Positions 407 through 13,130 of a DNA stretch of 17,849 nt are shown here, piece by piece. The DNA lies in contig JACPHL010000265.1 in assembly GCA_016188625.1 (NCBI GenBank), positions 1 to 17,849 on the forward strand, read 5' to 3'. Positions within the stretch are counted from its first letter, which is position 1. Every line of letters starts with the position of its first letter. The notes beneath the pieces were generated by a model. It worked only from the letters and a program-made list of their open reading frames with translations, did no database searches and was not told the DNA's origin. The position numbers and the translations under genes were made by a program. This DNA comes from Candidatus Rokuibacteriota bacterium (GTDB taxonomy: Bacteria > Methylomirabilota > Methylomirabilia > Rokubacteriales > JACPHL01).

Positions 407-715
407 GTGACGGCGGCGACCCTCGCGCTCCTGGCGGCCGGGCTCTTCTTCGCCGCGGTCGCGAGCCTCGGGGTCCTCCGGCTCCCGGACTTCTACGCCC
501 GTCTGCACGCCGTGGGCAAGGCCGAGACCCTCGGGGTGCTCCTCGTCCTCGCCGGCGTGGCCCTCTGGCAGGGTCCCACCCTGACCAGCGTGAAGGTGCT
601 GTTCGTGGCGCTCTTCTTCTTCCTCACCAACCCCACGGCGACCCACGCCATCGCCCGGGCCGCCCTCCGGATCGGCGTCAGGCCCCTGGCCGCCGACGCG
701 GAGCGCCGGCCGTGA
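407..715 (+). CDS. mrpG: Mrp/Mnh Na+/H+ antiporter subunit G
   Basis: This 102-residue protein has three hydrophobic helices (about residues 3-24, 42-58 and 61-82). The conserved loop LRLPDFYARLHAVGKAETLG (residues 24-43) is diagnostic of MrpG/MnhG/PhaG, whose family motif is RxPDxxxRxHaxtkaxtlG. The length is typical. The start is GTG at 407, four bases after mrpF ends. Its TGA stop overlaps the GTG start of the next gene in a GTGA junction, implying translational coupling. MrpG is a small membrane subunit needed for a functional Mrp complex and has no catalytic role of its own that is known. Nothing in the sequence is abnormal. Confidence 0.93.
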   Translation: MTAATLALLAAGLFFAAVASLGVLRLPDFYARLHAVGKAETLGVLLVLAGVALWQGPTLTSVKVLFVALFFFLTNPTATHAIARAALRIGVRPLAADAERRP

Positions 716-1239
716 GCGGGCTCCTCAACGCCCTCTTCCTGGCGCTCCTGGTCATCCTGGCCGTGGCCGCGGTCCGGGTGCGGGACCTGGTGGGCGCGGT
801 GCTGGCCCTGTCGGCCTACGGGCTGGTGCTGGCCCTGACCTGGGCGGGGATGGGGGCCGTGGACGTCGCCTTCACCGAGGCCGTGGTCGGGGCCGGGGCC
901 TCCACCGTCTTCTTCCTGGCGACCCTCCTCAGGACCGTCAGGACCGAGCAGGTCCGCCTGCCCCGCGCCCGAGCCGCGAGCCTCGCCGCGGTCTTCCTGC
1001 TCGGGGGCCTCCTCTTCCTCGCCACCCACGAGTTCCCGAGCTGGGGCGATCCGGCCTCGCCTCCGTCGGTCCACGTCTCCCCCCGCTACCTCCGCCTGGG
1101 GTACGCGGAGACCGGGGCCCCGAACATCGTGACGGCGGTCCTCGCCGACTACCGTGGCTACGACACGCTGGTCGAGACCGTGGTGATCTTCACCGCGGCC
1201 CTGGCCTGCTGGGTGCTCCTCGGGAGGCCCAAGGCGTGA
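712..1239 (+). CDS. MbhD/MbhE-type subunit (equivalent to the C-terminal domains of MrpA)
   Basis: This 175-residue membrane protein has two parts. Residues about 1-72 hold three helices with the DUF4040/MbhD pattern, including VDVAFTEAVVGAGAST, which carries the conserved TExxVG membrane glutamate. Residues about 85-172 resemble MbhE, with GAPNIVTAVLADYRGYDTL and a final helix. In classical Mrp systems these two domains form the C-terminal tail of the giant MrpA subunit. Here they stand alone, as in archaeal membrane-bound hydrogenases and split-MrpA clusters, although MbhD and MbhE are fused. The domain lines the proposed Na+ path at the MrpA/MrpB side of the complex. The start is GTG at 712, overlapping the mrpG stop; the stop overlaps the mrpB start. 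Confidence 0.88.
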   Translation: MSGLLNALFLALLVILAVAAVRVRDLVGAVLALSAYGLVLALTWAGMGAVDVAFTEAVVGAGASTVFFLATLLRTVRTEQVRLPRARAASLAAVFLLGGLLFLATHEFPSWGDPASPPSVHVSPRYLRLGYAETGAPNIVTAVLADYRGYDTLVETVVIFTAALACWVLLGRPKA

Positions 1240-1685
1240 TCCGCGAGCACGACAGCGTCATCGTGCGGACCGTGGTGCGGGCGCTGGTCCCCTTCATCCA
1301 GCTCTTCGCCCTGTACGTGGTCTTCCACGGCCACTACAGTCCGGGAGGAGGCTTCCAGGGCGGGGTCATCCTGGCGGCCAGCTACATCCTGATCGCCCTC
1401 GCCCTGGGCCGGGCGGAGCTGGACCGGCTGGTGCAGGAGGGGGCGGTGCTGGTCCTGGGCGCCCTCGGGGTCCTGATCTTCGCCCTCACGGGGGCCCTGG
1501 GCCCGGTCCTGGGTGCGCCGCTCCTGGACTACGAGGTCCTGTCCCTGCCCGGCGTCCACGGCCCCGAGGCCAGGGCCCTCGGCATCCTCATCATCGAGAT
1601 CGGGGTCGCCATCGGGGTGGCGGGCGCGCTCACGCTGATCTTCTGCCGCCTCGCCAAGGCCGGGGAGGGGGGGGGGGCGCCGTGA
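1236..1685 (+). CDS. mrpB: Mrp/Mnh Na+/H+ antiporter subunit B (MnhB domain)
   Basis: This 149-residue protein has about four membrane helices and the family signature HGHYSPGGGFQGGVILAAS (residues 30-48). That glycine-rich loop is characteristic of MnhB/MrpB and MbhF. The length matches MrpB (about 140-150). The start GTG lies within the TGA overlap with the upstream MbhD/E gene (1236-1239). The C-terminus is the low-complexity AGEGGGAP, encoded by an 11-base G run at 1667-1677. That run also forms a purine-rich Shine-Dalgarno-like stretch just before mrpC, which starts at 1682 inside this gene's stop. It is a core subunit of the antiporter membrane domain, next to MrpC. Confidence 0.94.
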   Translation: MIREHDSVIVRTVVRALVPFIQLFALYVVFHGHYSPGGGFQGGVILAASYILIALALGRAELDRLVQEGAVLVLGALGVLIFALTGALGPVLGAPLLDYEVLSLPGVHGPEARALGILIIEIGVAIGVAGALTLIFCRLAKAGEGGGAP

Positions 1686-2062
1686 CCGAGCTCCTCGCCT
1701 ACGCCGCGGCCCGGTACAACTACTGGGTCTACATCCTCCTGATGCTCATCGGCTTCTACGCGATGGTCGCCCACGGTAACCTCCTCAAGAAGGTCATCGG
1801 CATGAACATCTTCCAGACGGCCATCATCCTCTTCTTCCTCTCGACCTCGGCCAAGCGGGGCGGGACCCTGCCCATCGTCGGCCCGGAGGCCCTCGCCGGC
1901 GGCGTGGCCCCGGCGCAGCTCATGAACCCGCTCCCCCACGCCCTCATGCTCACGGCCATCGTGGTGATGGTGGCCACCCTCGGGGTGGCCCTGGCGGTCC
2001 TGGTGAAGATCTACCGGAGGTACCGGTCGTTCGAAGAGGACGTGATCCTGGACCGCCTGTGA
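1682..2062 (+). CDS. mrpC: Mrp/Mnh Na+/H+ antiporter subunit C (NuoK-like)
   Basis: This 126-residue NuoK/MnhC-family protein has three helices, at about residues 13-31, 36-56 and 88-112. The motif KKVIGMNIFQTAIILFFL (residues 36-53) matches the conserved second helix of MrpC (GLxLlsnavNLfll type). A loop of about 25 residues (GPEALAGGVAPAQLMNPLPH), then ALMLTAIVVMVA, gives the characteristic 'DPLPQALxLTAIVI' signature. MrpC is homologous to complex I NuoK and sits between MrpB/A and MrpD. The start is GTG at 1682, overlapping the mrpB stop, and the TGA stop overlaps the mrpD start. The length is slightly above the typical 110-115 residues because of a charged C-terminal tail (YRRYRSFEEDVILDRL). 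Confidence 0.95.
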   Translation: MTELLAYAAARYNYWVYILLMLIGFYAMVAHGNLLKKVIGMNIFQTAIILFFLSTSAKRGGTLPIVGPEALAGGVAPAQLMNPLPHALMLTAIVVMVATLGVALAVLVKIYRRYRSFEEDVILDRL

Positions 2063-3555
2063 TGCTCCTGGATCACCTCCCGCCCCTCCTCCCCGTCGTC
2101 CCGCTCCTCGCCGCCCTCCTCCTCCCCCCGGTGGGCGCCGTCCGTCGCGGCCTGGTCCATCCGCTGGCGGCGGGCGCGGGGGCGGCGACGGCGATCCTCG
2201 CCCTCCTCGCCCTCCGGCGCGTGCTGGCCGAGGGGGTGATCCACTACCACGTCGGGGGGTGGGAGCCGCCGTGGGGGATCGAGCTGGTCCTGGATCACCT
2301 CAGCGCCTTCACGGCCGTGGCGGTCTCCGGCGTGGGGGCCCTCGCCCTGCTCTACGCCGGCCCCGCCGCCGGCGCCGAGGTGCGGGGCCGGGAGGCGTCG
2401 TTCTTCGGGCTCGCGCTCCTCCTCCTGGCGAGCCTTCTGGGGATGATCGTGACGGGCGACCTCTTCAACCTCTTCGTCTTCCTCGAGGTCGCCTCGATCT
2501 CGAGCTATGCGCTGGTGGCCACGGGGGACGGGCGCGCGCCCCTGGCCGCCTTCCGGTACATCGTGCTGGGCACGGTGGGGGCCTCACTCTACCTCCTCGG
2601 GGTCGGCCATCTCTACCTGATGACCGGGACCCTCAACATGGCCGACCTCGCCGACCGGCTCCCCGCGCTCGCCTCCTCGCGGGTGCTGGCCGTGGCGGTG
2701 GGGTTCCTGGTCATCGGGCTGGGGATCAAGATGGGGCTCTTCCCCCTCCACGGCTGGCTCCCCGACGCCTACACCTACGCCCCCCCGGCGGTGACGGCCC
2801 TGATCGCGCCCATCGCCACCAAGGCCGCCGCCTACGCGTTGGCCCGGATCCTCTTCTCCGTCCTCGGGGTCCACCGGGCGCTGACCGAGGTCCCGCTGAT
2901 GACCCTGCTGGCGTGGGCCGGGGCGGTGGCGATCGTGGCCGGCGGCGTCCTGGCGATCCGCCAGAACGACCTGCGGCGCCTTCTGGCGTACTCCAGCGTC
3001 AGCCAGATGGGGTACATCGTGCTGGGGATCGGGCTCGCCAACCGCCCCGCCCTGATCGGGGCGTACCTGCACATCCTCAACCACGCGATGATGAAGGGGT
3101 GCCTCTTCTTCGCCGCGGGGGCCGCGGCGGCCCGGCTCGGGGGCCCGGCCCTGGCGGACCTCCGCTGGATGCACCGCCGCATGCCCCTCACCACCGCGTG
3201 CGTGATCGTCGCCGCCCTCTCCATGATCGGGGTCCCGCCGACGGGGGGGTTCTTCAGCAAGTGGTACCTCCTGGTGGGGGCCGTCGAGGGGGGGCAGCCG
3301 GTCCTCGCCGGCGTGATCCTGGTCGGGGGGCTGCTGGCGGCGGTGTACATGTTCCGGGTGCTCGAGCACGCCTGCCTGGTCCGGCGCGAGGAGGGGGACC
3401 ATGGGCCCGCGCCCCCGTCCGGGCGGTCCGAGGCCTCCCCCGGAATGCTCGTCCCGCTCCTGGCCCTGGGGCTCGGCATCCTGGCGGTGGGGATCTGGAA
3501 CGCGCCGATCGTCTCGGGCGTGCTCAGGTTCGCGGCGCCCGCCGGGCTCAGGTAG
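2059..3555 (+). CDS. mrpD: Mrp/Mnh Na+/H+ antiporter subunit D (NuoN/M-like)
   Basis: This 498-residue polytopic protein of the proton-conducting antiporter family (PF00361) has about 14 helices. The proton-path residues all appear intact: Glu143 in VFLEVASISSY (helix 5), Lys224 with the FPLHGWLPDAY loop (helix 7), Lys255 in APIATKAAAYA (helix 8), His342 and Lys346 in NHAMMKG, and Lys401 in GGFFSKWY (helix 12). The start is GTG 2059 or the adjacent ATG 2062, both overlapping the mrpC stop. The stop is TAG, six bases before the next gene, so TAG is used as a real stop in this genome. MrpD is a proton-translocating subunit of the complex. A hydrophilic segment at about residues 440-455 (near EEGDHGPAPPSGRSEAS) separates the last two helices. 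Confidence 0.95.
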   Translation: MMLLDHLPPLLPVVPLLAALLLPPVGAVRRGLVHPLAAGAGAATAILALLALRRVLAEGVIHYHVGGWEPPWGIELVLDHLSAFTAVAVSGVGALALLYAGPAAGAEVRGREASFFGLALLLLASLLGMIVTGDLFNLFVFLEVASISSYALVATGDGRAPLAAFRYIVLGTVGASLYLLGVGHLYLMTGTLNMADLADRLPALASSRVLAVAVGFLVIGLGIKMGLFPLHGWLPDAYTYAPPAVTALIAPIATKAAAYALARILFSVLGVHRALTEVPLMTLLAWAGAVAIVAGGVLAIRQNDLRRLLAYSSVSQMGYIVLGIGLANRPALIGAYLHILNHAMMKGCLFFAAGAAAARLGGPALADLRWMHRRMPLTTACVIVAALSMIGVPPTGGFFSKWYLLVGAVEGGQPVLAGVILVGGLLAAVYMFRVLEHACLVRREEGDHGPAPPSGRSEASPGMLVPLLALGLGILAVGIWNAPIVSGVLRFAAPAGLR

Positions 3556-3561
3556 GACGGG

Positions 3562-5049
3562 ATGGGCGGCGAGGTCGTCGAGGCCTGGGGGCCGGGGCTC
3601 GCGCTCGTCCCGTCGCTGGCGGCCGCCGCCCTGATCCCGCTCTCGGCCCGTGCCCCCGCGCTCCGCGAGGCGTGGAGCCTCCTCGCCTCCGTGGCCCAGG
3701 CGGCGGTGGTCCTGTCCATGGTCCCGGGGGCCGCGGCCGGGGTGGTGCTCGAGACGACCCTGGTGGAGCTGGCGCCCGGGGTGCCCCTCGTCCTGCGGGC
3801 CGACGCCCTGGGGTGCGTCTTTGCGGCCCTCGCCTCGGGGCTCTGGGTGCTGACCACGGTCTACTCCATCGGCTACGTCCGGGGCCTCCACGAGCACGCC
3901 CAGACCCGCTACTTCTTCTGCTTCGCCCTCAGCCTCTTCGCGGCCGTCGGGGTGGCCTTCGCGGGGAACCTCCTGACCTTCTTCCTCTTCTACGAGATCC
4001 TCACCCTCGCCACCTACCCCCTCGTGGCCCACAAGGAGACGCCGGCGGCGGTCCAGGCCGGCCGGATGTACCTCGCCTACACCCTGACGGCGGGGGTGGC
4101 GCTCCTCGCCGCGACGGCGTGGCTCCAGATCCTCGTCGGCACCGTGGAGTTCCGGCCGGGGGGGATCCTGGGCGAGGCGGTCCCGCCCGCGACGCTCTGG
4201 CCGCTCCTCGGGCTCTTCGTCCTGGGCGTCGGCGTGAAGGCGGCCCTGATGCCGCTCCACTCATGGCTCCCGGTCGCGATGATCGCCCCGACGCCGGTCA
4301 GCGCCCTCCTCCACGCCGTCGCGGTGGTGAAGGCGGGCGTCTTCGGGGTCGTCCGCGTCCTCGGCTACGTGGTCGGCCCCGAGCTGCTGGGAGGCCTCGG
4401 GGCCTGGAGCGCGGTGGCGTGGCTGGCCGCGGCGACCATCCTCGCCGGCTCCCTGCTGGCCCTGGCCCAGGACAACCTGAAGCGGCTCCTGGCCTTCTCC
4501 ACGGTGAGCCAGCTCTCGTACGTCGTCCTCGGGGTCGCGCTGGGGACGCCGAGCGGGGTCGTCGGCGGGATCCAGCACATCGTCAACCACGGGGTCACGA
4601 AGATCACGCTCTTCTTCTGCGCGGGGGCGATCTACGTGGCGACGGGGAAGGAGCGGGTGAGCCAGCTGGCCGGGATCGGGCGCCGGATGCCGGTGACGAT
4701 GGGGGTCTTCGCCGTGGCGGCCCTCGGCCTCGCCGGCCTGCCGCCGGCCAGCGGCTTCCTCTCCAAGTGGTACCTGATCCGCGGGGCCCTGGAGGCCGGC
4801 CAGTGGCCGTTCGTCCTCGTCTGGCTGGCCAGCTCGCTCCTGAACCTCGCCTATTTCCTCCCGATCATCATCAGCGCCTTCTTCCGCCGCTCCGGGGAGG
4901 CCGAGGGGGTCACCGAGGCGCCGGCCACCCTGCTCGTGCCGCTGGTCGTGACGGGGGCGGCGAGTGTCCTCCTGGGGGTGGCCCCCGGGGCCTTCCTCAG
5001 CCTGGCCTCGCGGGCCGCCCACGACATCCTCGGGGGGATCCTCCCGTGA
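3562..5049 (+). CDS. Second large antiporter subunit, MrpA/NuoL-like N-terminal module
   Basis: A second PF00361 antiporter subunit, 495 residues. Key residues are present: Glu145 in FLFYEILTLATYPLV, Lys226 followed by MPLHSWLP, His251 and Lys257 in PTPVSALLHAVAVVKAG, His343/Lys347 in VNHGVTKI, and Lys402 in GFLSKWY. The PTPVSALLHAxxVVKAG stretch is the NuoL/MrpA signature, whereas the upstream mrpD has the MrpD/NuoM form. I infer that this gene supplies the MrpA channel while the MbhD/E gene at 712-1239 supplies MrpA's C-terminal part, so MrpA is split here. Databases may label it 'subunit D'. The start is ATG 3562, six bases after the mrpD stop; an in-frame upstream start is unlikely. The stop overlaps the next gene's GTG. 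Confidence 0.9.
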   Translation: MGGEVVEAWGPGLALVPSLAAAALIPLSARAPALREAWSLLASVAQAAVVLSMVPGAAAGVVLETTLVELAPGVPLVLRADALGCVFAALASGLWVLTTVYSIGYVRGLHEHAQTRYFFCFALSLFAAVGVAFAGNLLTFFLFYEILTLATYPLVAHKETPAAVQAGRMYLAYTLTAGVALLAATAWLQILVGTVEFRPGGILGEAVPPATLWPLLGLFVLGVGVKAALMPLHSWLPVAMIAPTPVSALLHAVAVVKAGVFGVVRVLGYVVGPELLGGLGAWSAVAWLAAATILAGSLLALAQDNLKRLLAFSTVSQLSYVVLGVALGTPSGVVGGIQHIVNHGVTKITLFFCAGAIYVATGKERVSQLAGIGRRMPVTMGVFAVAALGLAGLPPASGFLSKWYLIRGALEAGQWPFVLVWLASSLLNLAYFLPIIISAFFRRSGEAEGVTEAPATLLVPLVVTGAASVLLGVAPGAFLSLASRAAHDILGGILP

Positions 5050-5255
5050 CGCCCAGGGGGCTCCTCTGGATCGCCTTCGCCCTGAGCGCCGCGGTGGAGC
5101 TCCTCCTCCCCGCCGCCGAGACATCCCTGCCTTGGTGGCACCGGACCCCGGCCTTCCACGCCGCCTACGGCCTCGTCGGGTGCATGCTCATCGTCGTCGT
5201 CGCCAAGGCGCTCGGGAGGTACTGGCTCCAGCGGCCCGAGGGCGACGATGACTGA
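5046..5255 (+). CDS. Small conserved-type membrane protein within the antiporter operon
   Basis: This 69-residue protein starts at GTG 5046 in a GTGA overlap with the preceding antiporter gene and ends at TGA 5253-5255, overlapping the ATG (5248) of the next. It has two hydrophobic helices (residues about 5-25 and 40-57) joined by a loop with SLPWWHRTPAFHAAYG, then a basic/aromatic segment GRYWLQRPEGDDD. I know of no named function. Similar short proteins with a 'W..R.P.F.A..G..G' loop and a KalGryWLqR tail recur, to my recollection, between antiporter-like subunits in Mrp-related clusters. It is probably a small structural subunit. Overlap at both ends and GC-rich codon use support real coding. 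Gene finders could miss it, since a long shadow frame covers it. Confidence 0.82.
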   Translation: MTPRGLLWIAFALSAAVELLLPAAETSLPWWHRTPAFHAAYGLVGCMLIVVVAKALGRYWLQRPEGDDD

Positions 5256-6743
5256 CCTCGCCCACCCCGCGTGGGTCTACCTCGCGGGGGCGCTCCTCGC
5301 GGCCGTCGTCCCGCGCCGCGGGCGGGTCCCCCTGCTCCTGGCCGTCCCCGGAGCGGCCCTCGCCCTGGGCCTTTGGCTCCCCGAGGGGCGGGAGACGGCG
5401 GCGCGCTTCCTCGGGCAGGAGGTCGTCCTCCTCCGGGCCGACCGCCTGAGCCTGGTCTTCGGCACGGTCTTCGTGATCATGGGGCTCCTCGGGACCGTCT
5501 TCGCCCTCCACGTCCGGGAGCGCGGCCCGCACGTGGCGGCGTTCGCCTACGTCGGGAGCGCCCTGGGCGTCGTGTTCGCGGGGGACCTCCTCACCCTGTT
5601 CGTCTTCTGGGAGCTCATGTCGGTCTCCTCCGCCTTCCTGATCCTCCAGCGACGCACCGCCAAGGCGCTGGCCGCGGGCTTCCGGTACCTGATGGTCCAC
5701 GCCTTCGGCGGCGCCTGCCTCCTGGCCGGGCTCCTGCTCCGCGCGGCGGCGGGGGAGGGCCTGCGATTCGAGGCCATGGCGCTGACGGGGGCGACGGCGC
5801 TGATCCTCCTCGGCTTCGCGGTCAACGCGGCGATTCCGCCCCTCTCGGCCTGGCTGACCGACGCCTACCCCGAGGGGACGGTGACCGGGAGCGTCTTCCT
5901 CTCCGCCTTCACGACCAAGGCGGCGGTCTACGCGCTGGCGCGGGGCTTCCCCGGGGTGGAGCTCCTGGTGTGGGCCGGGGCGGTGATGGCCCTCTACGGG
6001 GTGGTGTTCGCGGTCCTGGAGAACGACATCCGGCGGCTGCTCGCCTACCACATCGTCAGCCAGGTGGGCTACATGGTCACGGGCGTGGGCCTGGGGACGG
6101 CGCTGGCGATCAGCGGGACGGCGGCCCACGCCTTCAGCCACATCCTCTACAAGGGCCTGCTCTTCATGGCCACCGGCGCGGGAGCACCGGGCCGCGGTGG
6201 AGTGGATGCTCGCCATGGCCTCCGTGGGGACGTTCCTCCACACCGGGCTCAAGCTCCCGTTCTTCACCTTTTTCGCGGCGGATCGCGGGGTCCACCGGCG
6301 GGAGCCCCCGGGGAACATGCTCCTGGCCATGGGTCTGGCGGCCGTCCTCTGCGTCGGCATCGGGGTCGCGCCGGGGTTCCTCTACCGGATCCTCCCGTTC
6401 CCGGTGGCCTACGAGCCGTACACCGCCCCCCACGTCGTCACCACCCTCCAGCTCCTGCTCGGCACCGGGGTCGGGTTCATGCTGCTGGTGCGGCATCTCG
6501 GCGGCGAGCCGACCGTGACCCTCGACACCGACTGGGTGTACCGCCGGGGGGGTCGGCTCCTGCTGGGGTTCTGCCAGGCGTGGGTGCGGGCGAGCGCCCG
6601 GGGGACGGCCGCCCTCGCGCATGGGATCGGCCGGCTGCGGGCGGAAGCGGGGCTCAGGCCCGGCCGGTCGCGGCGCCCTCCCCGTGGGCTACTGGGTGGT
6701 GATCAGCCTGGGGCTCCTGGGCCTGCTCATCCTCGCCCTGTAG
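5248..6743 (+). pseudogene. Third large antiporter subunit (MnhD/HyfB-like), broken by internal deletion and frameshift
   Basis: Residues 1-311 (5248-6180) read as a normal PF00361 antiporter subunit: Glu122 in VFWELMSVSS, NAAIPPLSAWLTDAYPEG, Lys224 in FTTKAAVYALARGF, ENDIRRLLAYHIVSQVGYM and HAFSHILYKGLLFMATGA. After Ala311 the frame changes. Homology resumes at 6182 in another frame as EHRAAVEWML, ASVGTFLHTGLKLPFFTFF. Compared with the two paralogues just upstream, about 55 residues are missing, including the helix-12 SGFxSK lysine segment. A second frame change lies at about 6655-6680: the expected C-terminal helix (VGYWVVISLGLLGLLILAL, then TAG 6741-6743) is in the third frame. Unlike the other two large subunits, the helix-7 lysine is replaced by Asn193 and the loop histidine by Ser. 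Either a decayed gene or an assembly collapse. The first 1.45 kb could also be called as a 484-residue ORF with an aberrant tail. Confidence 0.85.
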
Positions 6744-7026: not shown

Positions 7027-7734
7027 CTAGAGATGGGCGATCTCGTCCTCGGGGGCGCGCTCCCGGCGCATCCGCCGCTCGAGGAGGTCCCGCGCCACGT
7101 CGCGCCCCCCGAGGCCGAAGGCCAGGGAGAGGGTGAGGATCAGGCCGCCGAAGGTGAGGGCGAAGGCGAGGAGGACCATCTCCTTCCCGATCCCGAGCTG
7201 GGTGAGGACGATCCCCAGGGTGAAGAAGAGAACGGCCCAGCGGACGGCGCGGGAGAGGAGCCGGGCCTCCGGGATCTGGGCGTTGACCGCCCCGATGAGG
7301 ACCGCCTGGGCCAGGAAGTTGGCCATGAGCCACCCGACGGCCAGGACGAGGAGGGCCGCCAGGAGATTGGGGACCACCCGGACCAGGAGGCTCGTCGCCC
7401 CCGCGGCCCCGGGCAGGGCCAACAAGGTGTCGATCCCCAGCATGGCGAAGAGGAGGAAGATCCCCCAGAAGACGATCGCCCCGGCCAGGCGCTCGGGTGG
7501 CCGGGTGATCCCGGCCCGGAGGACGGCCTGGGCGATCCCCCACCGCTCGCAGCGAGCGGCGAACCCGACGGCCCTGAGGAGCCTCACCACGAGGGCCCGG
7601 GCGACCCCCCCGATGATGAGCCCGATCACGAGCAGGGCGAGGGCCCCCGCGGTGTTGAGGAGGACGATCCCCAGCTTCGGGAGGGCCCCCCGCAGCGGTT
7701 CCGACCAGACGATGTCCCACAGTCTCTCGCTCAT
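7027..7734 (-). CDS. Multi-pass 'conserved TM helix' protein, mechanosensitive-channel-like
   Basis: This 235-residue membrane protein has about five helices. Two segments match the 'conserved TM helix' repeat (PF05552 type) of CmpX-like and small mechanosensitive-channel-related proteins: residues about 16-55 (LGIVLLNTAGALALLVIGL) and about 125-160 (VVPNLLAALLVLAVGWLMA). It ends with the family hallmark LAFGLGGRDVARDLLERR. There is no MscS beta-domain, so it is not a full MscS. The start ATG 7734 has GGAGG 8 bases upstream and overlaps the stop of the upstream glycosyltransferase (ATGA). Much longer in-frame starts exist but are shadows of that gene. Located downstream of compatible-solute genes, it could release ions or solutes on hypo-osmotic shock; that role is inferred from context. 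Confidence 0.82.
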   Translation of the reverse strand: MSERLWDIVWSEPLRGALPKLGIVLLNTAGALALLVIGLIIGGVARALVVRLLRAVGFAARCERWGIAQAVLRAGITRPPERLAGAIVFWGIFLLFAMLGIDTLLALPGAAGATSLLVRVVPNLLAALLVLAVGWLMANFLAQAVLIGAVNAQIPEARLLSRAVRWAVLFFTLGIVLTQLGIGKEMVLLAFALTFGGLILTLSLAFGLGGRDVARDLLERRMRRERAPEDEIAHL

Positions 7735-9002
7735 GGCTTGAGCCTCCATGCCTCGACGAGGGAGGGCTTCTCGGTCTCGAAGGTCAGGGCGAGCCGCTCG
7801 ATCGCCTCCTCGACCTCCGCGGCGCCGGCGTCCCAGCAGGCGAGGAAAAAGCCCGCGGTGCGCCCCAGGTAGAGCGGGGTCAGGGACTTCAGGAGATGCT
7901 CCCGGTGCAGGAGCCGGCGGTGATGGGCGAGGGCGAAGCCGTAGATCGTCCGCACCCAGAGCAGATCGGGGAAGCGGAAGCTCTCGCGGGGCTCGGCGGC
8001 GAGGGTCTGGATCTCCTCGAAGACGGGCGGCTCGAGGATCTGGGTCCAGATCGGGTCCAGGTCCCGGACCCCCTGGCGGAAGATCGCCAGCATCCGGTCC
8101 ACGCTCACCTGGATCGGCTCCAGGCCGACGTGGTAGTGGAAGCCGAAGACCGGGACCGGGATGGAGGCGCTCACCGGGAACCAGACCTCCGCGTAGGTCT
8201 CCATGAGCTCGAAGAGCGAGCCCACCACCTGGACCATCATCGCCGACAGGTCCGCGCCAGGGTCCTTGGCGTCGTGGATCTTCGCCCCGAGGTAGGCCTG
8301 GCAGACCCGGAACCCCTCCGCCAGGGCCGTGATGGTCATCCAGATGTCCACCCCGAAGCGGGCCACGTCGGTCTCCCAGACCGGCTTCTCCAGGTAGCGC
8401 GCGGCGAGCTTCCCCGAGAAGCCGAAGTCGCCGCCGATCGGCTGGCGGATGCGCTGGCCGTAGAGGGCGCGGGTCAGGGGGTAGACGATGGAGTTGGTGA
8501 TCGTGCCGTCGAACTTGTGGCGGGAGTAGAGGGGGGTCACGTAGTCCGCCTCCCCCTCCCAGACCGGGCGGAGGAGCAGCTCGATCCACTCCGGGGTGAT
8601 GGAGCGCAGGTCGGAGTCCACGACGCAGCAGGCCTTGACCCCGAGGGCCTCGGCGATCCCGAAGATGGTCCTGAGCGCGCTCCCCTTTCCCGGGATCCCG
8701 AGGTACGGGGTGACGATCCGGTGGGCCTGCGTGACCGGATGCCTGACCAGGACGGCCTGGAGGTCGTCCAGGGCCGCCTGCGCCACCACCTCGGGCGTCC
8801 CGTCCGTGGAGCCCCCGTCGGAGTTCACGATCACGGCCCTGACCTGGGGGAAGTACTTGGCCAGCCCGACCCCCGCGGCCCGGACGACGTGGCCGATGGT
8901 GCGGGCGTTGTTGTAGCTCGGGATCCCGACCAGAAGGTCGGCCTGCTCGATCTCCTTAAGCTGGGCCTGGGCGGTCGGGCTCAGGAGGCCGTCTTGCGCC
9001 AT
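7731..9002 (-). CDS. GT-A glycosyltransferase, probably of the glycosylglycerate family
   Basis: This 423-residue protein has a GT-A nucleotide-sugar fold. It contains GIPSYNNARTIGHVV (residues 26-40), VNSDGGSTDGTPE (59-71), the GKG loop GIPGKGSALR (102-111), the metal-binding DSD triad in VVDSDLRS (127-134), PIGGDFGFSGKLA (188-200) and RFGVDIWMTITA (215-226). The C-terminal 150 residues are helical. This is the layout of GT2/GT81 enzymes that move glucose or mannose onto glycerate, 3-phosphoglycerate or a glycosylglycerate. It overlaps the upstream phosphoglycerate-sugar phosphatase by 22 bases, so the two probably act in one pathway. Candidates are glucosylglycerate synthase (Ggs-like) or a mannosylglucosyl-3-phosphoglycerate synthase. 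Start ATG 9002 (MAQDGLL) was chosen over a longer Arg/Pro-rich extension to 9056. Family is likely; substrate is unresolved. Confidence 0.85.
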   Translation of the reverse strand: MAQDGLLSPTAQAQLKEIEQADLLVGIPSYNNARTIGHVVRAAGVGLAKYFPQVRAVIVNSDGGSTDGTPEVVAQAALDDLQAVLVRHPVTQAHRIVTPYLGIPGKGSALRTIFGIAEALGVKACCVVDSDLRSITPEWIELLLRPVWEGEADYVTPLYSRHKFDGTITNSIVYPLTRALYGQRIRQPIGGDFGFSGKLAARYLEKPVWETDVARFGVDIWMTITALAEGFRVCQAYLGAKIHDAKDPGADLSAMMVQVVGSLFELMETYAEVWFPVSASIPVPVFGFHYHVGLEPIQVSVDRMLAIFRQGVRDLDPIWTQILEPPVFEEIQTLAAEPRESFRFPDLLWVRTIYGFALAHHRRLLHREHLLKSLTPLYLGRTAGFFLACWDAGAAEVEEAIERLALTFETEKPSLVEAWRLKP

Positions 9003-9832
9003 GGCATCCGGGTACGCGCCCGGTCGCCGAGGAGCCCGAGGACGACCTCGTTCCACCCCCGGGGGCCGGGGCGCCGGGCGCGGGGCCAGGGGCGGTCGCG
9101 GAAGGCCGGGTCCACGTCCCCCTCCGCCCGCGGGATCACGATGGGGTGATCCACGACCTCGAGCATGGGGAGATCGTTGGCCCCGTCGCCGAGCCCCGCC
9201 GTGGCGACCTCGGGGGAGAGCGAGCGGTAGAGGTCGGTCAGGAGCTCCACCGCGGCCCCTTTGGTGGCGCCGCCGGTGAGGTGATAGAGCCGCCCGCCCT
9301 GGGTGAGGGTGAGCCCCCGGGCGCGGGCCTCGCGCCCGAGCCGCTCGACGTCGGCCGCCCCGAGGTCGGCGACGAACGGCTCGTCGTACTCCCGCGCCTT
9401 GGCCCGGCGGGCCGCCTCGAGGTCGAGCCCGGTGAGGGCCGCCACCTCCGCCGGCTCCATCTCGGCGAAGCCGCGGAGGCGGAGGCCCGTGGCCGCCGCG
9501 ATCTCCCGGAGCGCCGCGGTGAGCCGCGCGTAGGCGACCCCCAGCTCCACGATCCGGTACGGCCCGGCCGCGTGCGTCCCGGCGGGAGGGGCCGGGAAGT
9601 ACCCCCCGGGGATCACGATGGCCCCGCCGTTCTCGACGATGAACGGGTCGGGGAGGCCGAGGCGCGCCCGGTGGACCTCCACCTCCGCCCGCGTCTTCGA
9701 GGAGCAGAGGACCAGGGGGATCCCCTCCCGCGCCAGGCGCTCCAGCGCGGGGCGCGCGGCCGCGTCGTCGTAGGTCTCACGGTCCAGGAGGCAGCCGTCC
9801 AGGTCGCTGAAGACCACGAGGGGTCGGCTCAT
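8981..9832 (-). CDS. mpgP: Mannosyl-/glucosyl-3-phosphoglycerate phosphatase (HAD superfamily, MPGP type)
   Basis: This 283-residue HAD-IIB phosphatase has all four motifs: I, FSDLDGCLLD (nucleophile Asp10, Asp12); II, CSSKTR (residues 43-48); III, Lys191 in GGATKGAAVELL; IV, GLGDGANDLPML (Asp216, Asp220). The cap carries AREYDEPF (146-153), a signature of the mannosyl-3-phosphoglycerate phosphatase/YedP family. It would remove phosphate from a glycosyl-3-phosphoglycerate to give the compatible solute (mannosyl-, glucosyl- or mannosylglucosyl-glycerate). Because a GpgS-type synthase lies in the same operon, the glucosyl substrate is the most likely one. Start ATG 9832 is preceded by GAGG. The 3' end overlaps the glycosyltransferase by 22 bases. 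About 107 non-coding bases precede it, so it may have its own promoter. Confidence 0.9.
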   Translation of the reverse strand: MSRPLVVFSDLDGCLLDRETYDDAAARPALERLAREGIPLVLCSSKTRAEVEVHRARLGLPDPFIVENGGAIVIPGGYFPAPPAGTHAAGPYRIVELGVAYARLTAALREIAAATGLRLRGFAEMEPAEVAALTGLDLEAARRAKAREYDEPFVADLGAADVERLGREARARGLTLTQGGRLYHLTGGATKGAAVELLTDLYRSLSPEVATAGLGDGANDLPMLEVVDHPIVIPRAEGDVDPAFRDRPWPRARRPGPRGWNEVVLGLLGDRARTRMPWRKTAS

Positions 9833-9939
9833 CCGGGCGATCCTCGCGGACCCCGGCTAATGACTCTCACTGGCCAAAAGCGACTCCCGACTATGCGCTA
9901 TCGCCCCTCTTTCCGTGTAACCCGGTTGCGCGAGATCCA
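9833..9939 (-). other. Spacer between the hflC reading frame and mpgP
   Basis: This 107-base stretch has visibly lower G+C than its surroundings and sits upstream of mpgP on the minus strand. It is the only sizeable gap between the first (otsA-hflC) and second (mpgP onward) halves of the minus-strand gene series, so it is a plausible place for an internal promoter. A weak pair TTACAC / CATAGT is present on the minus strand, but its spacing of 19 bases and poor consensus match make it unconvincing. No terminator-like hairpin with a T run was seen. Confidence 0.35.
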
Positions 9940-10083
9940 TCAGTCCCGCGCCCGGGAGGTCGGCAGGTACCGGAGCAAGGGGGAGTCGGCCGAGAGGAGG
10001 ACCGTGCTCTTGTCGTCGAGGAACTTCTCGTACGCCTCCAGGCTCCGGAGGAAGCCGTAGAACTCGGGGTCCTGCCCGTAGGC
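9940..10083 (-). other. In-frame continuation of hflC beyond a TAG codon
   Basis: Immediately after the TAG that ends the hflC frame (10086-10084), the same frame stays open for 47 codons to TGA 9942-9940. It encodes AYGQDPEFYGFLRSLEAYEK and then FLDDKSTVLLSADSPLLRYL. This is the normal conserved C-terminal region of HflC (family pattern IYAEAYgrDPEFyaFyRSLeaYr...l.pdSeffryl). The stop therefore sits inside the gene. Compared with the family pattern IYAEAYG, the local reading is IYG-stop-AYG, consistent with GAG changed to TAG. Whether this stretch is translated is unknown. Confidence 0.85.
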
Positions 10084-10815
10084 CTAGCCGTAGATCTGCG
10101 TCGATTGCGCCTCCCCTTCGCCCCGGCGCCGCTGGCTCTCCTCGTAGGCCCTGGCCAGGATGATCGTGCGCTCCTTGTCGGTTTCCGCCCGGATCTTGGC
10201 GGATTCCTCCGCCCCCTCGGAGCGGTAGCGCTTGGCGATCCGCTCGCGCTCGGCCACCATCCTGGCGAAGACGCTGGCCTGAACCTCGGTGGGGAGATCG
10301 GCCCGCTTGACCCGGACGTCCACCACCTGGATCCCGAACTGCTGCGCCTTCTCGGCGGTGCGGGCGGCCACCGCCTCCATGGCCGGCTCCCGCTCCGCGG
10401 CGATGAGCTCAGCGAACTCCCGCGAGGCGAGCTCCCGCCGCAGCTCGGAGAAGACCAGGTCGTCGATCCGGGCTCGCGCCCCGGCCTCGTCCCGGACGGT
10501 GATGAAGAACTGAAGCGGATCCACGATCCGCCAGCGGGTGACATGGTTCACCAGGACCCGCTTCTTGTCCAGGGTGAGGTACTCGGCGGGGTCGGCGTCG
10601 CTGGAGAGGATCCGCCGCTCGAACTTGACGACCTGCTGGAGGAACGGGACCTTCCAGTGAAGCCCCGGCTCCCGGATCGCCCGCTTGAACTGTCCGAGCT
10701 GGAGGATGAGCGCCTGCTCCCACTCGCCGACCGTGAAGAGGGTCTGGCTGCCCAGGATGAGGACGGCCAGGACGAGGACCAGCAGGCCGAAGCCGGAGAA
10801 GATCGTCCGCATCAT
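10084..10815 (-). CDS. hflC: HflC-type SPFH membrane protein, C-terminally truncated by an in-frame TAG
   Basis: This 243-residue product has an N-terminal membrane helix (about residues 5-24), an SPFH/band-7 domain starting TVGEWEQALILQLGQF (28-43), HWKVPFLQQVVKFERR, and an Ala/Glu/Arg-rich helix (about 170-240) ending GEGEAQSTQIYG. HflC pairs with HflK in the cytoplasmic membrane to form a large cage that surrounds and modulates the FtsH protease. The start is ATG 10815, within the ATGA overlap with the hflK stop (ATG 10812 is an alternative). Normal HflC continues about 50 residues further, and that sequence is present after the TAG, giving 291 codons in all. The gene is thus nonsense-interrupted, read through, or affected by a sequence error. 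HflC identity is secure. Confidence 0.92.
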   Translation of the reverse strand: MMRTIFSGFGLLVLVLAVLILGSQTLFTVGEWEQALILQLGQFKRAIREPGLHWKVPFLQQVVKFERRILSSDADPAEYLTLDKKRVLVNHVTRWRIVDPLQFFITVRDEAGARARIDDLVFSELRRELASREFAELIAAEREPAMEAVAARTAEKAQQFGIQVVDVRVKRADLPTEVQASVFARMVAERERIAKRYRSEGAEESAKIRAETDKERTIILARAYEESQRRRGEGEAQSTQIYG

Positions 10816-11870
10816 TGCCGGGCCCTCCCCCCCTGGTCCGGCTGCGCCGGGGGTTGCTGGAGGATGGTGATCTCCTTCAGCGGCAGGAACGGGACGACGT
10901 TCCCGCCCTTGCTGTCGAGGACGACCTTGTGGACGGTGGGGAGGACCCGCTCGAGGGTCTCCAGGTGGAGCCGCTCGCGCGTGACCCGCGGGGCCTTCCG
11001 GTACTCGGCGAGGACCGCCTCGAACCGGGCCGCGTCGCCCCGGGCCCTCAGGATCCGCTCCTCCTTGAACGCCTCGGCCGCCCGGAGGATCTCCTGGGCC
11101 TGGCCCCGGGCCCTGGGGATGATGTCCTCCCGGTACCCCCGGGCCTCGTTGATCAACCGCTCCCGATCCTCCCGGGCCCTGACCACGTCGTGGAAGGCGT
11201 CCTTGACCTGGTCGGGGGCGTCCACGGTCTGGAGCTTCACCTCGGTGATGAGGAGCCCGGACTCGTAGGTGTCCATCAGCTGCTGGAGGAACTCGCGGGT
11301 CTCGTCCTGGACCCTGAGGCGCCCCACGGTGAGCACCTCGTCGATGGTGGTGTTGCCGACCCGGCTCCGGAGCGCGACCTCCGTGGCGGCCCGGATGGTG
11401 CCGATCGGATCCTGGATCCGGAAGAGGTACTGGATCGGGTCCTTGATCCGGAACTGGACGATGATCTGGGCATCGACGATGTTCTCGTCCCCGGTGAGCA
11501 TCAGCGACTCCCGGGGAACCTGGATCAGGCTCCCCGGCCGCCGGGGGTCGCTCCGGAAGCCGACCTCGAGCCGCTGGATCCGCTCCACGTTGACGACGTC
11601 CGCCTGCTGGATCGGCCAGGGGATCCGGTAGTTCGGCCCCGCGCTCGTCTTCTTCACCACGCGCCCGAACTGCTGGACCACGCCCTGCTCGCCGGGGCCG
11701 ACGATGTAGAACCCCGACCCCAGCCAGATGGCCAGCACGACGATGAGCACCGCGAGGAGGTGGCGCCGGGACCAGTGCGGGAGCCCGGGGATCCGGGAGC
11801 GGAGATCCTCCCACCCGCCGCCCCGGCGGCCCCAGGGCCTCGTGGGCCACCGATCGTCGTCGAATCGCAT
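10812..11870 (-). CDS. hflK: HflK, SPFH-domain partner of HflC (FtsH modulator)
   Basis: This 352-residue protein has a short cytoplasmic N-terminus rich in Arg/Gly/Trp, one membrane helix (about residues 36-54), then SGFYIVGPGEQGVVQQFGRV. It continues with PWPIQQADVVNVERIQRLEVGFRS, ESLMLTGDENIVDAQ, and a long helical region (about 230-310). GYREDIIPRARGQAQEILRA and LYLETLE-type LHLETLERVLPTVHKVVLD are HflK hallmarks. The length is shorter than E. coli HflK (419) mainly at the glycine-rich N-terminus. HflK and HflC form the periplasm-facing cage around FtsH and affect membrane-protein turnover; ftsH itself is not in the window. Start ATG 11870 has a strong AGGAGGTGA site. It follows gpgS by 51 bases and overlaps hflC by 4. 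Confidence 0.94.
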   Translation of the reverse strand: MRFDDDRWPTRPWGRRGGGWEDLRSRIPGLPHWSRRHLLAVLIVVLAIWLGSGFYIVGPGEQGVVQQFGRVVKKTSAGPNYRIPWPIQQADVVNVERIQRLEVGFRSDPRRPGSLIQVPRESLMLTGDENIVDAQIIVQFRIKDPIQYLFRIQDPIGTIRAATEVALRSRVGNTTIDEVLTVGRLRVQDETREFLQQLMDTYESGLLITEVKLQTVDAPDQVKDAFHDVVRAREDRERLINEARGYREDIIPRARGQAQEILRAAEAFKEERILRARGDAARFEAVLAEYRKAPRVTRERLHLETLERVLPTVHKVVLDSKGGNVVPFLPLKEITILQQPPAQPDQGGRARQ

Positions 11871-11921
11871 CTCGTCACCTCCTGAACGGGGCGTACGCCT
11901 CGGCGCCCGGGCCCCCGTCCC

Positions 11922-13130
11922 TCACACGTTGTCCTTGTCTACGGCGGCCACGATCCGATCGAAGCAGTCCGGGATGGCCGCCAGGACCCGGTTCCAGTTG
12001 GGGATCAGGGGGAGCCCGACCGGATCGGCCAGGTATTCCTCGGAGGCGATCCGCACCGCCCGGGCGAAGGCCTCCACCGCCGAGCCCTCCTCGTGCTCGT
12101 CGAAGGCCAGGCTGTTGATGAGGGCGTCGTTGTAGTACCGGCCCATCATCTCCTTGGCCGTCCGGAGATAGGTGACCGGGAGGCTCGCCAGCGGGGCCTC
12201 GGAGATGGGGACCCCCTCCTCGGCCAGGGTCCGCAGGATCGACTTGGTGATGTCCACGGCCATCCGCATGAGCCCCTTCTTCGGGTCGTCGGGGGAGAGG
12301 GCCTGGTGCTTGTGCTCGTAGGCGTCCGAGAGGTCGGACTGGCAGACCCGGCCCACCGCGCAGTTGCGGTAGATCTCGGCCAGGACCCCGACCTCGAGCC
12401 CCCAGTCCCCGGGGATCCGGTTGATCCGCGCCAGGTCGGCGATCATGGCGAACTCCCCGGCCAGGGGGTAGCGGAAGCTGTCCAGGAAGACCAGGAAGGG
12501 GTGGTGGCCGACCATCCGCTCGAGCGCCCGGACCAGCGGGGTCACCAGCAGGCGGGTCGCCCGGCCGTGGAGCCGGTCGGTGACCCGGCTGTAGTACCCC
12601 TTGCAGAACTCGAAGGTCAGCCGCGGGTTGGCCACGGGGTAGACCAGCCGGGCGGGGATCTCCCGGGTGTAGGTGACGATGTCGCAGTCGTGCAGCGCGA
12701 TGACGTCGCACTCCCCCCGGGCCAGGACGTAGCCGTAGGCCAGCCACGCCGACCGCCCCTTGCCGTCCGGCCCGATGGTCAGCCCCTTCTCCTCCATCTC
12801 GCGGAGGAGGCTCTGGAACCGGGAGCCGTCGATCCAGATCAGGGTCGTCTTCTGCGGCAGGACGCCGAAGAACCGCCGCGCGCGGTCGAAGTCCTCGTCC
12901 TTGGCGCGCCCCAGGGCCACCACGACCTCCCGGATGTAGCGGACCAGCTTCAGCTCCTCGATGATCCGCGGCATGGCCGGGCCGTCCAGCTCCGAGTAGA
13001 GGCACGGGAGGACCAGGGCGATGGGGCGCATGGCGGCCCACTTCTCCAGCTCGGCCTCCAGCCGCTCGAGGTTGGCCTTCCCCAGCCGGTGCAGGGTCGT
13101 GATCACGCCTTGCTGGTGAAAGTCGCTCAT
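11922..13130 (-). CDS. gpgS: Glucosyl-3-phosphoglycerate synthase (GT81-type glycosyltransferase)
   Basis: This 402-residue GT-A enzyme starts MSDFHQQGVITTLHRLG and shows LVLPCLYSELDGPAM (residues 39-53), the GKGR loop (123-126) and ALHDCDIVTY (145-154) with the metal-binding Asp148-x-Asp150. It also has YPLAGEFAM (221-229), DWGLEVGVLAEIYRN (242-256) and YEHKHQ (271-276). These match the GpgS-type family that transfers glucose from a nucleotide sugar to D-3-phosphoglycerate, the first step of glucosylglycerate synthesis. Length fits. Start ATG 13130 has AAAGGAG about 7 bases upstream, only 16 bases after the otsB stop. The phosphatase needed for step two lies further down the same strand. A mannosyl-specific synthase is a less likely alternative. 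Confidence 0.87.
   Translation of the reverse strand: MSDFHQQGVITTLHRLGKANLERLEAELEKWAAMRPIALVLPCLYSELDGPAMPRIIEELKLVRYIREVVVALGRAKDEDFDRARRFFGVLPQKTTLIWIDGSRFQSLLREMEEKGLTIGPDGKGRSAWLAYGYVLARGECDVIALHDCDIVTYTREIPARLVYPVANPRLTFEFCKGYYSRVTDRLHGRATRLLVTPLVRALERMVGHHPFLVFLDSFRYPLAGEFAMIADLARINRIPGDWGLEVGVLAEIYRNCAVGRVCQSDLSDAYEHKHQALSPDDPKKGLMRMAVDITKSILRTLAEEGVPISEAPLASLPVTYLRTAKEMMGRYYNDALINSLAFDEHEEGSAVEAFARAVRIASEEYLADPVGLPLIPNWNRVLAAIPDCFDRIVAAVDKDNV

Follow-up and report, generated by a model that had tools for sequence, protein, structure and literature searches.

The minus strand of a 17,849-nucleotide stretch of DNA from a Candidatus Rokuibacteriota bacterium of the phylum Methylomirabilota (contig JACPHL010000265.1, hereafter the window) carries what is probably an osmolyte operon beside trehalose (otsA/otsB) genes, and its solute is probably glucosylglycerate. 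The host is known from metagenome data only, the genome being a metagenome-assembled genome (MAG) of 2.6 Mb in 344 contigs. Over positions 7027-13130 the gene order is gpgS-hflK-hflC-mpgp-GTx-PF05552. Our main subject is the fifth of these genes (9002-7731, minus strand; 423 amino acids, P0001), a glycosyltransferase that we call GTx. Its predicted fold and its conserved residues indicate that it is most likely a metal-dependent GT-A enzyme of the mannosylglycerate synthase (MGS), GT78-like type, with a presumably retaining mechanism. On balance, we favour a function as a single-step glucosylglycerate (Ggs-type) synthase that would run parallel to a two-step route encoded by the same operon.

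In the proposed two-step route, the glucosyl-3-phosphoglycerate synthase GpgS would couple nucleoside diphosphate (NDP)-glucose with 3-phosphoglycerate, and a phosphatase of the mannosyl-3-phosphoglycerate phosphatase (MPGP) family would then strip off the phosphate to leave glucosylglycerate. For GTx we infer the direct transfer of a hexose, most likely glucose from ADP-glucose or another NDP-glucose, to the 2-hydroxyl of D-glycerate. The channel-like PF05552 protein encoded downstream would probably release the solute on down-shock.

GpgS (P0003; 13130-11922, minus strand; 402 amino acids) is a homologue of the archaeal, Methanococcoides-type synthase. It scores 371.5 bits (E 4e-111) against the NCBIfam model GpgS_Meth, below the equivalog cut-off of 700, and keeps the motifs HDCDIV, GRAT, YPLAGEF and EHKHQ. 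The phosphatase (P0002; 9832-8981, minus strand; 283 amino acids), a HAD protein of the mannosyl-/glucosyl-3-phosphoglycerate phosphatase family, passes the TIGR01486 subfamily model (247.1 vs 164.75), misses the NCBIfam MPGP equivalog model (228 vs 244) and matches the MPGP structure 3ztw in the PDB with an E value of 3.5e-42. The labels 'GpgS-type' and 'MPGP-type', given to these proteins in an earlier sequence-only reading of the window, appear fair at the level of sequence, the curated cut-offs falling short of proving exact orthology. That reading also had GpgS, MPGP and GTx on one strand; its coordinates are exact, all three frames are open, and the phosphatase/GTx overlap of 22 bases that it gave is exact as well (8981-9002).

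Fold and active site of GTx

GTx lies at the edge of established sequence families. It shows weak similarity to the GT2 family PF00535, and its score of 24.9 against the Pfam family PF21969 (MGS_GT) is just under the gathering score of 27; we therefore call it GT78-like and do not file it under GT78. A GpgS-GTx fusion homologue reaches 27.3 against the same family. An MGS_GT family search of the window's genome and 14 control genomes gave zero matches and was uninformative. With GTx as a single sequence, a search against solved structures returned no match. We built a profile of 34 homologues. They came from Methylomirabilota and from other bacteria whose record titles included Nitrospirae, Acidobacteria, Deltaproteobacteria and Gallionella-type bacteria. 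The profile had the MGS of R. marinus as its best match (E 1.3e-6), with GpgS behind it (2e-3).

The AlphaFold2 model of GTx (pLDDT 88, pTM 0.88) points in the same direction. Its top match in Foldseek is MGS (2y4j, E 5e-16), and VIA-align superimposes the two over their full length, with a Z score of 34.5 over 355 residues at an identity of about 20%. The alignment with GpgS is mainly confined to the core (Z 19.6 over 224 residues). The polyprenyl-phosphate glycosyltransferase ArnC reaches a Z score of about 18 over 215 residues, and GtrB and WrtF are likewise far behind MGS. Thus, the cell-wall or lipid glycosyltransferase clade, a placement in which would have refuted the sequence-only reading, is not where the predicted structure falls. 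Its description of the enzyme as 'unassigned' was overstated, since GTx is MGS/GT78-like and a comparable operon has been reported from Persephonella marina.

The residue pattern is in line with the fold. In the published comparison of the two enzymes, K114, D134, D136, E232 and H258 of GpgS are equivalent to K76, D100, D102, D192 and H217 of MGS, and the threonine that binds the acceptor carboxylate is T187 in GpgS and T139 in MGS (PMC2581804). The profile alignment places K106, D129, D131, D219 and H243 of GTx at the five MGS positions, T169 at T139, and R161 and D165 at R131 and D135. All eight GTx residues are invariant across the 34 proteins. The motifs GGDFGFS and FGVDIWMT, to which attention had been drawn before, are both found in GTx.

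The Gly-Arg of a GR-x-T motif is present in 51/51 archaeal-type GpgS proteins, where it immediately precedes the position of the carboxylate-binding threonine, and also in MpgS and in fused bacterial GpgS. At this place GTx has DGTIT (Gly-Thr) and MGS has DAMIT (Ala-Met), the register between the archaeal-type motif and GTx being set by the motif itself. The arginine is presumably a phosphate contact in the 3-phosphoglycerate enzymes. Reading the missing Gly-Arg as the lack of a 3-phosphoglycerate feature makes D-glycerate the better acceptor candidate. That GTx is itself a GpgS was rejected: it scores 49.8 bits against the NCBIfam GpgS equivalog PRK13915, far below the cut-off of 262, and the Gly-Arg motif is missing.

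Genomic partners of GTx

Eleven other Methylomirabilota genomes carry these genes, usually in the same order, with identities to the window's proteins of 63-69% for GTx, 45-65% for MPGP and 70-82% for GpgS. As the gene set recurs in this way within the phylum, the arrangement is not a matter of chance. Among 95 Methylomirabilota genomes, 12 have both GTx and GpgS, none has only one of the two (0 GTx only, 0 GpgS only) and 83 have neither; MPGP accompanies the pair in 11 of the 12 and is a fragment at a contig end in the twelfth, which is one of the eleven relatives. In 148 Nitrospirota genomes the corresponding numbers (both, GTx only, GpgS only, neither) are 60, 3, 3 and 82, and the pattern of GTx and MPGP is much alike (59, 4, 4 and 81). 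In 247 Acidobacteriota genomes, counted at an identity of at least 40%, they are 39, 5, 7 and 196. These counts concern window-type GTx; they carry no correction for shared ancestry, and the Fisher values derived from them call for caution.

The three 'GTx only' genomes of Nitrospirota are explained by fusion of the GpgS domain to GTx. Each lacks a stand-alone GpgS and has one frame of 812-815 amino acids with the GpgS part first and GTx behind it (L152:12034-14364, with counterparts in L151 and L153). The N-terminal part resembles bacterial GpgS; in the single fusion that was scored it reaches 417 bits, well over the cut-off of 262. Moreover, GpgS and GTx are kept together in a genome even where they are unlinked. 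A first look at 80 loci had suggested many without GpgS; this was overturned by a genome-wide search of 30 genomes, picked for having no GpgS nearby or for being otherwise informative, which found GpgS in 27/30.

Exceptions occur in both directions. Catalytically intact GTx relatives with no GpgS detected are found in three genomes: G304 and G317, where they adjoin MPGP (L164 and L165), and G425, on a contig of 5.1 Mb (L169). Conversely, GpgS is present and window-type GTx is not in G159, G315, G394, G490 and G508. An Acidobacteriota subclade (L168-L170) is 34-37% identical with catalytic residues intact, and GpgS went undetected in two of its three members.

The neighbourhoods in other phyla were examined in 80 loci, a non-random sample comprising the best-scoring of at least 570. 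A PF05552-like gene lies directly downstream of GTx on the same strand in 77/80. Its counterpart in the window (7734-7027, minus strand; 235 amino acids; PF05552, 36.7 bits) is a small membrane protein with the MscS-related conserved transmembrane helix, whose start shares four bases (ATGA) with the end of GTx; Pfam did not find the MscS beta domain in it. A glycerate 2-kinase is encoded within 5 kb in 15/80, in some cases fused to MPGP. Such MPGP-glycerate 2-kinase fusions (about 710-790 amino acids) occur in Gallionella-type bacteria and lie directly upstream of GTx in L074:7729-9939, L086, L089, L110, L131 and L149. GlgC, which would supply ADP-glucose, lies within 5 kb at 6/80 loci; one locus, L145, has a different sugar nucleotidyltransferase as a neighbour, possibly a GDP-mannose enzyme.

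Candidate reactions

The glycosylglycerate pathway assigned to these genes by the sequence-only reading is supported. Between the two roles it had offered for GTx, we favour direct synthesis, and thus routes in parallel, because the fold matches MGS from end to end, the acceptor site is retained, some intact relatives have no detected GpgS and a similar operon is reported for P. marina. The glycerate 2-kinase and GlgC genes near some GTx loci also fit this choice. Several points weigh against it. The near-perfect co-occurrence with GpgS and the fusion are explained no less readily by a sequential pathway than by parallel routes; an identity of about 20% to MGS means that neither donor nor acceptor can be transferred from that enzyme; the likeness to the characterised P. 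marina system is one of gene arrangement; and the absence of GpgS from MAGs may be missing data. The other role, addition of a second sugar, is kept alive by the co-occurrence in Methylomirabilota, Nitrospirota and Acidobacteriota, by its persistence in unlinked genes and by the fused GpgS domain of the three Nitrospirota genomes. GTx would then follow GpgS and place a second hexose on glucosyl-3-phosphoglycerate (MggA-like) or on glucosylglycerate (MggS-like), with mannosylglucosylglycerate, diglucosylglycerate or another disaccharide glycerate as the end product. We consider this rather unlikely, although a serious candidate: the glycerate-carboxylate site of MGS is wholly retained, suggesting glycerate O2 as the nucleophile, and both the intact relatives without detected GpgS and the five genomes with GpgS and no window-type GTx speak against it.

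GTx could also be a mannosylglycerate synthase that uses GDP-mannose and D-glycerate, so that the operon would yield two solutes, glucosyl- and mannosylglycerate. The nearest solved structure is the R. marinus MGS, and the PIGG(D/E) of GTx resembles the PLGGE of that enzyme, a loop in which glycine has been argued to tolerate mannose (PMC2581804). The loop is not decisive, as GpgS of M. hassiacum also aligns as PLGGE, and we dropped PLSGE/PLGGE as a discriminator between mannose and glucose for this reason. Since the recurrent nucleotidyltransferase neighbour is GlgC, with L145 the sole other kind seen, and given the low identity to MGS, we regard a mannosyl product as improbable. The gene overlap with MPGP, and the pairing of MPGP with GTx in G304 and G317, where GpgS went undetected, would suit a second 3-phosphoglycerate-dependent synthase, GpgS- or MpgS-like, whose product needs the phosphatase. 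This is very unlikely, because the arginine of GR-x-T is a threonine in all aligned window-type GTx proteins and the NCBIfam GpgS score is so low. The chance of an unrelated cell-envelope glycosyltransferase that came to lie in the operon by accident is negligible. The weak GT2 similarity would agree with it, but this candidate was rejected on fold, ArnC-like enzymes scoring far below MGS, and structure, residues, co-occurrence and fusion indicate glycerate chemistry.

Surrounding genes, paralogues and known systems

Two further genes of the interval, both outside the pathway, separate gpgS from mpgp: hflK (11870-10812, minus strand; TIGR01933, 283.9 bits, exceeding the cut-off of 159.4) and hflC (10815-10084, minus strand; TIGR01932, 169.8 bits). 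The sequence-only reading was right about its three genes and did not mention this pair, an identical insertion of which is found in one relative (G073, L033). An in-frame TAG at 10086-10084 ends hflC, and the HflC-like reading continues for 48 codons, to about 9939; the TAG may be a nonsense change of recent date, an assembly error or a site of readthrough. Directly upstream of gpgS lie otsB, for trehalose-phosphatase (13989-13147, minus strand; TIGR00685, 139.9 bits), and otsA, for the GT20 trehalose-6-phosphate synthase (15524-14034, minus strand; PF00982, 423 bits). An Mrp-type antiporter operon occupies 407-6700 on the opposite strand, as judged from open reading frames and gene order. 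GpgS lies close to Mrp-type antiporter genes repeatedly, as in L159 (802-2007 onward), L115 and the window.

Methylomirabilota also contain GTx paralogues directly after TreT, one of them in the window's own genome (L002:1116-2384) and others in L042-L070; the identity of TreT is well supported by L071 (E 2e-104 against 2x6q). None of 30 aligned TreT-adjacent relatives, L002 included, keeps all of K106, D129, D131 and H243. The DxD motif has become EAD or EAE, the metal-binding histidine is lost and GKG is mostly GRG; D131 is retained in most. Together with similar proteins of other phyla they form a derived clade in the tree (support 92/98, under the stricter level). Among the roughly 30 Methylomirabilota genomes examined that have a TreT-adjacent paralogue, the window's own is the only one in which GpgS was found. 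Such paralogues are possibly conserved pseudo-glycosyltransferases that partner the trehalose synthase; as D131 mostly persists, their activity may be changed and not lost. The idea that L002 is a stop-interrupted gene was rejected, the TGA inside the match being its natural stop. Trehalose clusters adjoining GTx repeatedly encode, upstream of TreT/OtsA, an MscS channel and a protein with DUF5752 (PF19027), as in L071, L073, L099 and others. A more speculative and doubtful proposal would make GTx and GpgS an obligate sequential pair, bifunctional in places, whose product is a so far undetected disaccharide glycerate, an osmolyte that would be widespread in Nitrospirota, Methylomirabilota and Acidobacteriota; the TreT clade would have lost catalysis and now partner trehalose synthesis in a regulatory role.

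With the assignment favoured here, a glycosyltransferase family that lacked a firm one, with hundreds of loci that include Nitrospira and Methylomirabilis relatives, can be tested as a glycerate enzyme whose gene has a constant partner. It also suggests a salt osmolyte for hard-to-culture nitrifiers and denitrifying methane oxidisers; a literature search on glucosylglycerate in Nitrospira surfaced nothing beyond an ectoine review. The products of the natural GpgS-GTx fusion would tell parallel from serial action.

Neither P. marina nor Petrotoga is among the best 80 of at least 570 GTx loci. P. marina is reported (Costa 2007; Fernandes 2007) to have an operon-like gpgS-gpgP-ggs cluster in which Ggs is a single-step synthase acting on ADP-glucose and D-glycerate. 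That system resembles the window and its Methylomirabilota relatives in that a third glycosyltransferase is clustered with GpgS and the phosphatase, whereas the window differs in its inserted hflKC, the overlap of the PF05552 gene with GTx and the adjoining otsAB. Petrotoga and Rhodopirellula reportedly make mannosylglucosylglycerate with MggA-MggB and MggS; there, too, GpgS, a second glycosyltransferase and a phosphatase are said to come together, which is a likeness in gene content.

When comparing individual enzymes, the closest resemblance is to the R. marinus MGS (GT78; 2bo4, 2y4j). GTx shares its full-length fold as predicted, including the C-terminal helical domain, and its residues for metal, donor and acceptor (K76, D100, D102, D192, H217, R131 and T139). 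At about 20% identity to MGS, GTx stays below the Pfam cut-off and, unlike that enzyme, has GpgS/MPGP and a channel-like gene as linked partners. With the mycobacterial GpgS (GT81) it has in common the GT-A core, the DxD motif and the Lys/Asp/His network; however, mainly the core aligns, and GTx lacks the Gly-Arg motif seen in enzymes that use 3-phosphoglycerate. GTx is of a kind already known, with a precedent reported in P. marina, and belongs to a well-defined, widespread family tightly linked to its partners. Less expected are the GpgS-GTx fusion, the near-invariant channel-like neighbour and the apparently degraded catalytic sites of the paralogues paired with TreT.

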